From: Candidatus Paceibacter sp.
Lineage (GTDB): Bacteria; Patescibacteriota; Minisyncoccia; Phycocordibacterales; JABAAK01
Assembly (NCBI GenBank): GCA_014238775.1
Contig: JABAAK010000049.1
Span: forward strand, 1-20,490
Direction of reading: 5' to 3'
DNA length: 20,490 bases
Each line of letters opens with the position of its first letter. Within the stretch, counting starts at the first letter, position 1. The notes beneath the pieces were generated by a model. The model saw only the letters and a program-made list of their open reading frames with translations, had not been told where the DNA came from and searched no databases. Below are positions 1-18,930 of this stretch, in pieces. Both the position numbers and the translations under genes were made by a program.

Positions 1-63
1 ATAATTGAGGATATTAGACAAAGTCCGAAGGGTTATTCTATACTAATACAAGCAAACAAATAA
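1..63 (+). CDS. infC: Translation initiation factor IF-3, C-terminal end (partial)
   Basis: Frame 1 is open from the first base and ends in TAA at 61-63, giving 20 residues that finish QSPKGYSILIQANK. IF-3 proteins end in a similar way: a helix, then PK..G..M.VLAPK. The position directly upstream of rpmI and rplT is the conserved infC-rpmI-rplT order. IF-3 binds the 30S subunit and checks start-codon selection. The stop is one base before the rpmI ATG, so the genes are probably cotranscribed. Only the end is visible, so the call rests on context plus a short match. Confidence 0.75.
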   Translation: MIEDIRQSPKGYSILIQANK

Positions 64-14039: not shown

Positions 14040-14384
14040 TTAAGATCTTATCTGTGCTTCTACAGAAACCCCGGCAGGTAAGTCTAGGTTTGAAAGTGCT
14101 TCTATAACTTGTTGTGATGGGTTTATAATATCAACAAATCTAGTGTGTATACGCATCTCAAACTGTTCTCTTGCGGTTTTAAATACAAACGACGCTCTGT
14201 TTACTGTGTATTTTTTGATTTTTGTTGGTAATGTTACTGGTCCTACTATCTCTACATTTAGTCTATTTCCAGTTTCTACAATTTGCTTTACTGACAAATC
14301 AAGAATACTTGGCTCATATGCTTGTACTCTAACTCGAAGTTTTGAATTTTCGGTTTTGTTTTTAGTAGCTTTACTCGTTGCCAT
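14040..14384 (-). CDS. rpsJ: 30S ribosomal protein S10 (uS10)
   Basis: 114 residues from the ATG at 14384. The core reads LRVRVQAYEPSILDLSVKQIV, VGPVTLPTKIKKYTVNRASFVFK, REQFEMRIHTRFVDI and EALSNLDLPAGVSVE, covering the whole family length with a short extra N-terminus. A TTG at 14387 just upstream is in frame, but the ATG is the more likely start. S10 is in the 30S head and also acts as NusE in antitermination. It follows tuf by 9 bases, joining the str and S10 operons. Confidence 0.97.
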   Translation of the reverse strand: MATSKATKNKTENSKLRVRVQAYEPSILDLSVKQIVETGNRLNVEIVGPVTLPTKIKKYTVNRASFVFKTAREQFEMRIHTRFVDIINPSQQVIEALSNLDLPAGVSVEAQIRS

Positions 14385-14393
14385 CAAAGTAAA

Positions 14394-15590
14394 TTATTTT
14401 GTGATTTTTACTACTACACCAGCTCCTACAGTTTTACCTCCTTCTCGAATAGCAAATCTTTGTTTTTCTTCCATAGCGATTGGCGCTACAAGTTTTACAT
14501 CTACATTGACTGTGTCTCCAGGCATAACCATCTCTGTTCCTGTTTTTAATACTACTTCACCTGTTACATCTGTTGTCCTAAAGTAAAATTGTGGTTTGTA
14601 TCCTTTCATAAAAGGAGTATGCCTTCCACCCTCTTCTTTTGATAGGACATAGATTTCCGCCTCAAATTCTGTGTGAGGTGTCACCGAACCTACAGCAGAC
14701 AAAACTTGTCCTCTTGTCATCTCTTCTTTCTTCTTTCCTCTAAGTAAGATGCCGGCATTGTCTCCAGCCATCCCTTCTTGAAGTTGTTTGTTAAACATCT
14801 CTATACCAGTAACTGTTGTTTTTGAAGTATCTTTTATACCTACTATCTCTACTTCCTCACCTACTTTTACCACACCTCTTTCAATCCTTCCTGTTACAAC
14901 TGTTCCACGTCCTTCAATAGAAAAGATGTCTTCTATAGGCATAAGAAACGGTTTTTCCATATCTCTTTTTGGCATTGGGAAATACTCGTCCATCTTGTCT
15001 ATTAACTCTACTATCTTTTTAGACCATTCTCCATCCACACTATCTTCTTCCAAAGCCTTTAGTGCTGAACCTCGAATGACAGGAGTCTTTGCTCCGTCAT
15101 AACCGTATTTGGTTAACAGTTCTCTAATTTCTTCTTCAACAAGCTCAACCATATCTTGGTCGTCTGTCATGTCACATTTGTTTATAAACACCATTATATT
15201 TGGTACACCAACTTGCCTCGCAAGTAAAACGTGTTCTCTTGTCTGTGGCATGGCTCCGTCTGTAGCTGACACAACTAAAATAGCTCCGTCCATTTGTGCT
15301 GCACCGGTTATCATGTTTTTAATATAATCTGCGTGACCAGGTGCATCAATCGCAGCGTAGTGTCTGTTTGGTGTTTCAAACTCAGAGTGAGCAATAGATA
15401 TGGTTATACCTCTCGCTTTTTCCTCTGGTGCTTTATCTAAGTCATCTACCTGTTTGCTCGTAGCTATATATCCGTTTCCTTTTTTACTTAAAACATTTAA
15501 GATAGCTGCAGTTAGTGTAGATTTACCGTTATCAACATGACCTATAGTTCCTACATTCATGTGTGGTTTGTTTCTGTCAAAGTCTGCCAT
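14394..15590 (-). CDS. tuf: Elongation factor Tu
   Basis: 398 residues, usual 394-400. It is a GTPase that delivers aminoacyl-tRNA. G1 reads GHVDNGKST (15-25), where nearly all EF-Tu have GHVDHGK[TS]: N21 replaces His. G3 is DAPGH (82-86) with the catalytic His86, G4 NKCD (137-140) and G5 GSAL (173-176). The effector region RGITI is intact. Domains II and III are complete, with [13 protein letters not shown] and the terminal [12 protein letters not shown]...[10 protein letters not shown]. Its own promoter and a leader of about 96 nt lie upstream. It is separated from fusA by an oppositely oriented gene. Confidence 0.98.
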
Positions 15591-15686
15591 AGTAATAATT
15601 ATTAAAATTTATAAATAAGGATTTGGTTTTAGACCAAAGAGCCTATAACATTTGCTGTGTTTGTTCTGTGACATATCACATAACAT
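15591..15686 (-). promoter_or_regulatory. tuf leader with two hairpins
   Basis: Predicted 5' leader of about 96 nt. It contains TGTGA-CATA/TATG-TCACA (15667-15680, 5 bp) and TTTGGT-5 nt-ACCAAA (15622-15638, 6 bp). The rest is A/U-rich up to the ATG, without a Shine-Dalgarno sequence. It may stabilise or regulate tuf mRNA; no known family is recognised. Confidence 0.35.
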
Positions 15687-15692
15687 AAAAAA

Positions 15693-15721
15693 AGAATAGC
15701 AAAAAACACCCTCTAGGTCAA
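15693..15721 (-). promoter_or_regulatory. Promoter of tuf
   Basis: On the minus strand TTGACC (15716-15721) and TATTCT (15693-15698) are 17 bp apart; transcription should start near 15686. The -35 box is inside the left arm of the inverted repeat at 15717-15747. It lets tuf and the S10 genes be transcribed apart from rpsL-rpsG-fusA. Confidence 0.65.
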
Positions 15722-15747
15722 GTTTTGTTATATTTAACAAACTTGAC
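15717..15747. repeat. 31-bp inverted repeat between divergent -35 boxes
   Basis: Left arm GTCAAGTTT-t-GTTA (15717-15730), centre TATT, right arm TAAC-AAACTTGAC (15735-15747): 13 paired bases with one extra T on the left. The outer ends of both arms form most of the -35 boxes of the tuf promoter (minus) and of the unknown-gene promoter (plus). It looks like an operator that could control both directions at once. Confidence 0.65.
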
Positions 15748-15771
15748 AAAACATTTTATATGGTGTATTAT
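15743..15771 (+). promoter_or_regulatory. Promoter of the unknown plus-strand gene
   Basis: Consensus TTGACA (15743-15748), a 17-bp spacer and TATTAT (15766-15771); an overlapping TATAAT sits at 15771-15776 but is too far. Initiation is expected near 15778, giving a leader of about 50 nt. Best -35 match in the window. Confidence 0.65.
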
Positions 15772-15828
15772 ATAATTAGAGCCGTAACGAACAGTAGGTA
15801 GTGTGGCAATGTTCAAAAAGATATAAAA

Positions 15829-16233
15829 ATGATGTATAATAATCCAATAGTCACTAGACTTAGCGAAATTAGAGGTGCTAACCGCACCGAAACATTTGGG
15901 GGTGGGGTGCTTGAAGCTGTTAGGATGGGATTCAAAAGAGAAAAAGCAGAAGAGCATGCCTTTGGTGTTAGAAAAGTAGAGTATATTAGAAGATCGGAAG
16001 AAGTGGAGAATACTCATTATCTTTTGACCTTAAAAAACAATGGTTCTGATCAAAAATTCAGATTTGCTGTAAAAGGCAAAGATGTAATTTTGTATAAGAA
16101 TTGGGACTCTATAAAATCCCAACACCAAGAGATGCTTATTTTGTTTTGTTTTTTTGTGTTTAACCACATTAAAAACAAAAAAAGCAAAGAGGAGGTTAAG
16201 ATCCACCTCAAAACTTTTAGCACAGCTGTTTAA
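15829..16233 (+). CDS. Unknown protein encoded antisense within the str operon
   Basis: 134 residues; I do not recognise a family. Residues 1-98 look like a small basic soluble domain: LSEIRGANRTETFGGGVLEAVR, a charged helix FKREKAEEHAFGVRKVEYIRR, then strand-like segments YLLTLKNN, KFRFAVKG and DVILYKNW. From about residue 103 a hydrophobic run MLILFCFFVF is followed by a lysine-rich tail; this part is low-complexity and less convincing. The gene is the only plus-strand gene between rpsL and rplT, lies between fusA and tuf, and has its own promoter upstream and strong terminators downstream. ATGATG start without a Shine-Dalgarno sequence. The stop lies inside a hairpin. Confidence 0.6.
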   Translation: MMYNNPIVTRLSEIRGANRTETFGGGVLEAVRMGFKREKAEEHAFGVRKVEYIRRSEEVENTHYLLTLKNNGSDQKFRFAVKGKDVILYKNWDSIKSQHQEMLILFCFFVFNHIKNKKSKEEVKIHLKTFSTAV

Positions 16234-16261
16234 TCTGTGCTCTAAGTCTAGAGGTTTTTTT
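16219..16261 (+). terminator. First terminator candidate after the unknown gene, with alternative folds
   Basis: Two overlapping stems: AGCACAG - 9 nt - CTGTGCT (16219-16241), spanning the stop codon, and CTCTA-AGTC-TAGAG (16240-16253) followed by G and seven T. The stems share two bases (16240-16241). The second has the form of a weak intrinsic terminator. A third small stem GAGGT-8 nt-ACCTC lies just upstream at 16192-16209. Confidence 0.5.
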
Positions 16262-16267
16262 ATAATG

Positions 16268-16300
16268 AGCAGCCGAGTCCATTGGGACAGCTGCTTTTTT
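16268..16300 (+). terminator. Intrinsic terminator of the unknown gene
   Basis: Nested hairpin AGCAGC-cga-GTCC-ATTG-GGAC-a-GCTGCT followed by T6 (the last stem T is the first of the run). It is the most GC-rich and best formed terminator in the window. The T-run overlaps the fusA stop codon on the other strand. On the minus strand the hairpin lacks a U-run, so it is called for the plus strand only. Confidence 0.8.
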
Positions 16301-18461
16301 ATTTGCCTGTGCGATTTTTTACTACCTCTTCTGCTATGTTTGTTGGTACCTCAGAGTAGTGTGAAAATTCCATAGTATTTGAACCCCTACCTGATGTCAT
16401 AGATCGTAGCGCTGTAGTATAACCAAAAATTTCTGACAGTGGTACAAGAGCTTTTAATACTTTCGCTTTTGATATATCTTCCATTTTTTCAATATGTCCT
16501 CTTCGGGAAGAAATGTCTCCGGACACATCTCCAACAAACTCTTCTGGAACTGTGACCTCAATTTTCATAACAGGTTCAAGTAATATGATTCCTGCTTTTT
16601 TTGTTGCTTCTTGAAAAGCTTGTGATGAAGCTATTTTAAATGCAATTTCTGAAGAATCAACATCGTGATAAGACCCGTCATATAGGTCCACAGAGACATC
16701 TACCATCGGATAAGATGCATAGACACCCCTCTGCATTGCATCAATTATTCCTTTTTCACAAGCGGGTATGTATTCCTGTGGTATCACCCCACCTTTTATG
16801 TTATTTATAAATTCAAACGATCCGTTATTTTTTATATTTTTCGGCAGTGCTTTTCGCTCTTCTTCTGTTAGTTTCTTGATCGGAGCAACTTTTATTTTTA
16901 CATGTCCATATTGACCTCTACCACCTGTTTGTTTTATATATTTTACTTCTGCCTCTGACGATCCTTTTATTGTTTCTCTATATGCTACTTGTGGTGTTCC
17001 TACATTTGCTTGTACACCAAACTCTCTTTTTAATCTGTCCACTATGATTTCAAGATGTAATTCTCCCATTCCAGCAATTTTAGTTTCCTCTGTCTCTTGG
17101 TCTGTTGTAACTTTAAAAGTCGGATCCTCGTTTGAAAGTTTGTGTAGCGAAATACCTAATTTTTCTTGGTCTGCTTTTGTCTTTGGTTCTATTCTCAGTT
17201 CTATAACTGGTTCTGGGAAAATTATTTTTGCCAACTCAATCGGGTTTTTTTCATCACAAAGGGTGTCTGATGTCTTTGCATCTTTCAGACCTATAACAGC
17301 ACATATCTCTCCAGAAAAAACTTTTTTAACTTCCTTCCTTTCATTCGCGTGTGGCAATACTACACGGCCTATTCTTTCTTTTGAACCAGTACGAGCGTTT
17401 AATACATATGTCCCTGCTTCTAAAATCCCAGAATATACACGACAATAAGACAACTGTCCTACAAAAGGGTCTGTTTGTAATTTAAATACCATAGCAGAAA
17501 AAGACTCATCATCAGATGGCTTTCTCTCAAGCTCTATATCTTCATCATCTGGATCTGTACCTTTGATAGGTGGTATATCTTTTGGCGATGGTAAATAATC
17601 AACAACAGCATCTAATAATATTTGTACACCTTTGTTTTTTAATGCTGATCCAGTAAACACCGGAAAAATTTTAGATTTTATCACACCTTCTCTTAATACT
17701 TTTTTAAGTGTTTCTACAGACAGGTCTTCGCCGTTTAAATATTTTTCTGCTATATCATCATCAAATTCAACTATTCGTTCAACGAGTATCTCTCTTTCTT
17801 TTTCTACTTCTGCTTTCATGTTTTCTGGTACATCACAAACTTCTATTTCTATTCCCATATCGCCGTTAAACTTATATCCTTTTCTTGTTAACAAATCCAC
17901 AACACCTTCGTGCTCTTCTTCTTCTCCTATTGGTAATTGCATTTTTACTGCATCTTTGTTTAATTTGTCTAATATACTTTGGAAAGAGTTTTTAAAGTTT
18001 GCCCCGGTTCTGTCTAGTTTGTTTATAAAAATTATTCTCGGAACATTATATTTATCTGCTTGTCTCCAAACTGTTTCTGATTGTGGTTCAACGCCAGCAA
18101 CTCCATCGAAAACAACAACCCCTCCATCTAAAACTTTTAGTGACCTCTCAACCTCTGCTGTGAAATCTACGTGTCCAGGGGTGTCTATGATGTTAAATCT
18201 ATATTTAGATTCCTCATCATTTTTATCTTTATCTGTTGGTGTCCAAAAACAAGTAGTCGCAGCACTTGTTATAGTTATCCCTTTTTCTTGTTCTTGCTCC
18301 ATCCAGTCCATCGTAGCCTCACCCTCATGTACTTCACCTATCTTGTGTGAAACCCCAGTATAAAAAAGTACCCTCTCTGTTGTTGTGGTTTTACCTGCGT
18401 CTATGTGAGCACATATGCCTATATTTCTTACTCGCTCTAATGGACAATCCCTTCCACTCAT
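16299..18461 (-). CDS. fusA: Elongation factor G
   Basis: 720 residues from the ATG at 18461; an upstream in-frame extension to 18557 lies inside rpsG and is rejected. EF-G drives translocation with GTP hydrolysis. The N-terminus is [29 protein letters not shown], with G2 [13 protein letters not shown]3 [17 protein letters not shown]4 NKLDR and G5 GSALKN. The later domains include [27 protein letters not shown] and the C-terminal [10 protein letters not shown] and [15 protein letters not shown]. It follows rpsG by one base (TAG T ATG). Length is slightly above the usual 690-700; no defects seen. Confidence 0.98.
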
Positions 18462-18462
18462 A

Positions 18463-18930
18463 CTACCAGGCAAGATGAGCGAAGGCTTTGTTAGATTCAG
18501 CCATTTTGTGCATGTTTTCTTTCTTTGTAACTGCTTCGCCTTCGTTAGCAGCGGCATTTATTAATTCTTGTGACAATACCTCCGATATAGGTTTTCCTTT
18601 TTTTGATTTTGAAGATGCTAAAATCCAACGAAAAGCTAAAATTTGTCTCCTGTGGCCTGAAACCTCTCTTGGTATTTGGTAGTTTGCACCACCGACTCTT
18701 TTAGAACATATTTCCATCATCGGTCCCACATTTTGTATAGCAGACTCAAAGACAACAAGAGGGTCTTTTTTTGTTTTTTCTTTTACATTTTTAAAAGATT
18801 GATAAACGATATTTCTTGCTGTGTTTTTTTTACCGCGCTCCATGACATAGTTGATAAACTTCGCCACTCTCACAGAGTTATATTTTGAATCTGGTGCTAT
18901 TTTTATTTTATTTTTTACTGGCTTTCTCAT
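18463..18930 (-). CDS. rpsG: 30S ribosomal protein S7 (uS7)
   Basis: 155 residues, as expected. Motifs: [72 protein letters not shown] and [24 protein letters not shown]7 nucleates the 30S head and in E. coli represses the str operon from the rpsL-rpsG spacer; here that spacer is only 3 bases, so that control cannot work in the same way. The start context is AAAATG. Confidence 0.98.

Follow-up and report, generated by a model that had tools for sequence, protein, structure and literature searches.

Probable back-to-back promoters in a palindrome between fusA and tuf of a Candidatus Paceibacter, and a tuf leader hairpin with complementarity to rpsJ in its order

In the str-S10 array, fusA, tuf, rpsJ and rplC are found in a row. 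The S10 operon of E. coli, an operon of ribosomal-protein genes, is headed by a structured leader RNA. In the layout known from LysR- and TetR-type regulators, the gene of an autoregulator is divergent from its neighbour and the operator is located between the two genes. Divergent transcription is also a property of bidirectional promoters which, as described by Warman and colleagues, have a shared -10 element and start sites most often 18 bp apart (PMC12825309). The locus described here, the spacer between fusA and tuf of a Candidatus Paceibacter, can be compared with all four.

We analysed a stretch of 20,490 nucleotides, called the window below, from a genome of 478 kb in 109 contigs that is 79.55% complete. 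In the NCBI taxonomy, Candidatus Paceibacter belongs to Minisyncoccales. One strand carries two genes which we take, from their open reading frames, to be rpsG and rpsL, followed by fusA (EF-G, 16299..18557, - strand), tuf (EF-Tu, 14394..15590, - strand), S10 and L3. The S10 gene, rpsJ (14040..14387, - strand), starts 6 bp downstream of tuf. S10 and L3 thus come after tuf, which heads the S10-side genes as had been supposed. This order on one strand is that of the str-S10 array, with the difference that a small gene on the opposite strand (15829..16233, + strand, 134 aa), divergent from tuf and convergent with fusA, splits the two genes in the window and in a relative of the same genus, G002. 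G003 and G004, from two further genera of the family, lack this gene; an ORF-free spacer of about 160 bp separates their fusA and tuf genes, and tuf has its own promoter. fusA is located elsewhere in G005 and G007, and no fusA match was listed in G006. The spacer presents a gene of limited spread inside a str-S10 array in which the tuf promoter was kept.

The spacer contains an inverted repeat, GTCAAGTTTTGTTATATTTAACAAACTTGAC, at 15717..15747. The original prediction described arms of 13 paired bases with a single bulge around a centre of 4 bases, 31 bp in all, and a recount led to the same figures. A scan for -35 and -10 hexamers at 16-18 bp spacing on both strands also recovered the two promoters whose -35 boxes had been assigned to the repeat arms: TTGACC-17-TATTCT for tuf (15693..15721, - strand, -10 at 15693-15698) and TTGACA-17-TATTAT for the small gene (15743..15771, + strand, -10 at 15766-15771). 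Their description as 'face-to-back' needs correction, as the promoters are divergent, back to back, with the -35 boxes facing away from each other and separated by 21 bp. The + strand promoter (15743-15771), with 11/12 consensus matches, is the top of the 10 sites in 14300-16600 (mean of 6.1 sites in shuffles). The - strand promoter (15721-15693) has 9/12 matches, a score equalled by seven other listed sites of the same region.

As with the bidirectional promoters described in PMC12825309, two divergent sigma-70-type promoters occupy a short, partly symmetric stretch where polymerases may compete. Unlike that type, the -10 boxes are separate here, no -10 element being used in both directions, the -35 boxes lie towards the shared centre, and the starts predicted from box positions are roughly 90 bp apart.

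We consider it probable that the palindrome consists of the two -35 regions, together with adjoining A/T-rich DNA, of two back-to-back sigma-70-type promoters. Since both promoters carry CTTGAC at -35 and A/T-rich DNA upstream, with the boxes 21 bp apart, the spacer reads as a palindrome: the opposed CTTGAC regions account for the six outer pairs out of 13, leaving seven inner ones (inner arm TTTGTTA). One of the two would be a tuf-S10 promoter of the kind found throughout the order, the other the promoter of the genus's small gene, set between fusA and tuf. Each half would most likely serve its own promoter, as the -35 box and the upstream DNA touched by RNA polymerase. Two polymerases may interfere across the shared 21 bp, and a dedicated repressor would not be needed. 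This explanation builds on what is read from the sequence: both promoters match the consensus and are kept in one congener, and a promoter pattern recurs upstream of tuf in the order. It would imply that both promoters are active, that polymerase uses the shared DNA and that no regulator is present.

To characterize the tuf promoter pattern, the best 30 of 56 tuf genes (from 60 genomes of the order) were joined to six family or genus loci. After two of these 36 (L008 and L081) had been left out as too short, 34 regions of 260 bases up to tuf remained. TTGAC-16..18-TAnnnT is present in 23 of them, compared to a mean of 0.9 and a maximum of 4 in shuffles (n=500), and in 6/7 regions of the family, including G003 and G004. 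A C precedes TTGAC in 14/23 matches. The A-rich stretch found before the tuf -35 box in the window is not general among tuf promoters of the order, as judged from lists of 8-base words, which weighs against the promoter explanation. For the small-gene promoter, a near-copy which also covers the early leader (80% over 71 bp) is found in G002:C24, before a different ORF and without a GTCAAG arm upstream. This contig (L043, 659-1640) carries a 218-aa ORF behind the near-copy and then a second ORF which by eye resembles the first. Most of the weak hits of the near-copy search fall within genes by eye and were set aside.

The repeat was then compared with chance. No other repeat of the window has 13 pairs or more, a size that 40 dinucleotide shuffles produced 0.15 times on average; 12 pairs are reached around 7687 and around 14023 as well. 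Shuffles of the intergenic region gave at least 13 pairs in 0.15% of cases (n=2000). With opposed -35 boxes, however, the GTCAAG...CTTGAC symmetry comes for free, and the chance test was therefore made with the boxes fixed: when the 19 inner bases were shuffled, 13 pairs were obtained at P = 0.0093 (about 0.009; 20000 shuffles). A survey of GTCAA...TTGAC pairs 25-45 bp apart, drawn from 513 kb of fetched, redundant DNA, provided 28 distinct cases, and 13 pairs with one bulge were found only at the window repeat. The runners-up had 10, 10, 10 and 9 pairs, two of the tens being the G002 site read on each strand. The palindrome thus exceeds chance, and its inner seven pairs do so modestly.

In G002, gene order and both promoters are kept, with the small gene beside fusA and tuf. 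The tuf promoter reads TTGACC-17-TATTAT there, with a -10 box improved from TATTCT, and the small-gene promoter is identical from -35 to -10 save one spacer base. The repeat, GTCAAGTATTGCTTAAGTGTAACAAACTTGAC, differs from that of the window by one insertion and four substitutions. The substitutions are confined to the bulged base and three centre positions out of four; with a bulge placement chosen after the fact, all 26 paired bases are unchanged. The inserted base lies in the tuf-side arm and brings the repeat from 31 bp to 32 bp, a 1-bp shift seen in this one relative. With one bulge allowed the G002 repeat forms 10 pairs, with two bulges 13. When four substitutions and one insertion were placed at random, 13 pairs survived in 9% of trials (n=20000); the pairing kept in G002 is not beyond random drift (P about 0.09). 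In a third congener, G001, the contig breaks 43 bases before tuf, leaving no spacer repeat to compare; its start region differs little from that of G002 by eye. The expectation that the repeat arms would be conserved in relatives is thus not refuted in the one relative compared, whereas the pairing itself is not kept beyond drift.

These data bear on another explanation, in which the repeat is an operator where a dimeric regulator, a protein other than the product of the divergent ORF, blocks both promoters at once. We regard it as rather unlikely, with two points to its credit that count against an explanation by promoters only. The symmetry extends past the -35 boxes, the inner pairs having the low chance value given above, and in G002 the paired bases stayed unchanged while the substitutions fell on the bulge and most of the centre, as would fit an operator. 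Against this, the G002 insertion shifts the register of the tuf-side arm and requires a second bulge, and the retained pairing, in a comparison of two sequences, is not beyond what drift would leave. The half-site AACAAACTTGAC also has one exact match each in G000 and G002, in both cases at the fusA-tuf locus and at this locus alone in the three incomplete congeneric genomes. With one mismatch or less, the same genomes contain 18 matches compared to 17 for the reversed control, hence no sign of a regulon. A protein reading such an operator would therefore act at a single site, and the palindrome, if it is an operator, would switch a very abundant protein from that one place. The dimeric regulator of the original prediction is not needed to account for the repeat, as the kept bases double as promoter bases and the pairing is not beyond drift. 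Spacing in the consensus of Rex-like and GlnR-like operators differs from that of the repeat by eye, and both were set aside.

The repeat might also act as a nucleic-acid structure, either a hairpin in RNA reading through from fusA or a cruciform, for instance as a terminator or insulator. The tolerance of bulges and centre changes in G002 is hairpin-like. Both species have identical stem pairs, so that no compensatory change is seen, and on neither strand is the stem directly followed by a stretch of T. The terminator scan did not list the repeat, and a role as terminator was dropped. No Rfam family matched the window at gathering threshold, the spacer giving sub-threshold matches only. Such a structural role appears improbable to us, and the promoter explanation is preferred.

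We then examined the small gene and its product. A homologue of 134 aa, 31% identical, occupies the same place in G002, in agreement with the prediction that the divergent ORF is a genuine gene. A search of 98 genomes with this ORF gave four matching genomes at E 0.01, convincing only in the window's own genome and in G002; the other two were rejected as homologues, being 32-residue alignments with an internal stop. A search of 5.8 billion proteins returned three sequences: besides the product of the window itself, the G002 protein and P0003, a further homologue on an 8176-base contig. Identity between the window and its homologues is 31-35%. A scan of a contig database showed at least one relative of the gene (L075, the same contig as G002:C17), and of 67 pattern-matching stretches in viral contigs none encodes a relative. 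The small gene is real and conserved: it keeps its place and length, diverges fast and has a very limited spread. It is likely followed by an intrinsic terminator, CTCTA-AGTC-TAGAG and a T run (16240..16262, + strand), read by eye; its two G-C pairs explain its omission from the terminator scan, where three are required. Terminator-like hairpins are seen by eye at 16240-16300, beside the 3′ end of fusA.

As in the LysR/TetR-type layout, a palindrome separates this gene from a divergent neighbour, and autoregulators typically are divergent from their target and adjoin it. The 134-aa product might then bind the repeat, repress its own gene and tune EF-Tu and the S10 operon, as the original prediction suggested. 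Conservation of the gene at the same place in G002 is consistent with this, and a weak score for Pfam MCM_N (E 0.024) points the same way; it was below cut-off and, as NCBIfam CcoG (E 0.0035), was treated as chance. Unlike the LysR/TetR-type layout, no family of Pfam or NCBIfam was found above cut-off in the small protein, hence no recognisable DNA-binding domain, and a sequence search of the PDB gave no relative. The AlphaFold model, built from three sequences, is of low confidence (pLDDT 53.8, about 54) and shows helices and a four-strand sheet. A fold search with it returned nothing below E 0.06, a result that a new fold hidden by a weak model could also give; the best matches, metallo-beta-lactamase fragments at E 0.06, were not used. 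In addition, the 31-35% identity of the proteins contrasts with the unchanged paired bases, which is unexpected for a protein that reads this DNA. A small protein acting as its own regulator thus lacks a DNA-binding family, a PDB relative and a convincing fold match, and we hold its reading of the palindrome to be very improbable, the least likely of the explanations considered.

Related genomes suggest the RNA leader of tuf as a likelier place of control than a dedicated switch protein. In the window's family, comparison of seven leaders gave a candidate structured element, AGG-CUC-UUUGGU...ACCAAA-U-CCU in the window (15618..15644, - strand). In 7/7 leaders, the 6 bases after GGCUC can pair (counting G-U) with a 6-base stretch that precedes YCC, the pairing partner being the best choice within each leader. 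The stem bases vary among genera and still pair (UUUGGU/ACCAAA, UUCGUU/AACGAA, UAUUUU/AAAAUA, UUUUUU/GAAAAA). Three of the seven leaders have a long intervening loop and a minimum-energy fold without the GGCUC stem.

Outside the window, many families of the order (loci L104-L132 and L154-L173) carry upstream of tuf a hairpin with an 11-bp covarying stem and a loop ending in GUUCUCGCGC. The 8-mers TTCTCGCG and TCTCGCGC are each present in 11/34 tuf upstream regions (0.0 in shuffles), and the loop motif, with one mismatch or less, in 17/36 leaders. An alignment of 16 leaders (L085 left out) had 73% of cells paired and a covariation of 0.631, compared to 0.245 in shuffles. The model made from it matched 39/98 genomes of the order at E 0.05, missing one genome of its training set, G047. 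Among the 30 best loci of these 39 genomes, tuf is directly downstream on the same strand in 29 and S10 was detected after tuf in 26, some loci being short at that end; one of the 30 rows is a duplicate. Fifteen of the 30 genomes were outside the model training, some of them near kin of model genomes, and 14 of these have tuf (exception L133). When the 30 loci were aligned to the model, 89% of cells were paired and 105 cells had changed on both sides, compared to 31 in shuffles, in a model-guided alignment which leans towards structure. The hairpin is absent from the window's family (only L085 among the 19 sources matched in the model test). Like the E. coli S10 leader, it heads an operon that holds S10. 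It differs from that leader in two respects: 20 loci with tuf leaders contained no match to an Rfam family at gathering threshold, and the hairpin loop complements codons within rpsJ.

The idea that the bare loop 10-mer is common in these genomes was rejected, as it is not enriched (29 matches in 7 genomes, compared to 27 for the reversed control). Six 10-mer matches on the other strand downstream of tuf prompted us to compare tuf-rpsJ stretches of 40 genomes, chosen by hand so that half (20) had the hairpin and most of the other 20 lacked it. By the motif rule (one mismatch or less, in the 150 bases before tuf) they divide into 22 genomes with the motif and 18 without. Read in reverse complement, the loop spells the A-R-E-Q codons of rpsJ (GCG CGA GAA C), which are located 1435-1708 bases downstream of the tuf start. 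GCG-CGA is used in 17/22 motif genomes, compared to 1.15 expected from their own tuf and rpsJ codon usage (maximum of 6 in 20000 simulations), kinship being ignored in this expectation. In the 18 other genomes A-R is present in nine and GCG-CGA in two (0.36 expected, P 0.04). Among 101 windows of two conserved codons in tuf and rpsJ with at least 16 spellings, the GCG-CGA site is the most uniform (17/22, the next 12/22); in genomes without the motif the A-R codon window falls short of qualifying for this ranking. When each loop was compared with about 2 kb of its own genome, no other place matched it as well by Watson-Crick pairing as the rpsJ site in 16/22 genomes.

Changes on both sides are seen in L193 (loop GUGC, codon GCA), in L183 (loop GAGU, codon GCU) and in L161 and L154 (loop C, codon GAG). 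Evidence against the contact comes from L156 and L160 (Watson-Crick pairing at 6/10) and from L159 and L183 (7/10). In addition, loops pair with their own site hardly better than with swapped ones (9.18/10 on average, compared to 8.98, and 7.77 with the sites of non-motif genomes). In the window, complementarity between leader and rpsJ extends over 6 bases (mean of 6.2 in shuffles), and neither the window nor five family genomes show any beyond shuffles.

With some reserve, we favour the view that the hairpin loop pairs with the rpsJ A-R-E-Q codons about 1.5 kb downstream on the same transcript, and that the window's family, devoid of both hairpin and complementarity, has another conserved leader structure and, in the genus, the back-to-back promoters. 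The contact, suggested by sequence complementarity, would be a long-range RNA contact that is apparently undescribed; on the control of EF-Tu and ribosomal protein genes in these small-genome bacteria, nothing was found in open-licence literature. If true, it would tie EF-Tu and S10 synthesis together and, if real as a pairing, it would be a directly testable control device for the whole order.

By eye, many tuf leaders of the order (e.g. L087, L092, L101) also carry a short ACGC...GCGT-like hairpin and a T run. Located just after the predicted tuf start site, it is possibly an attenuator.
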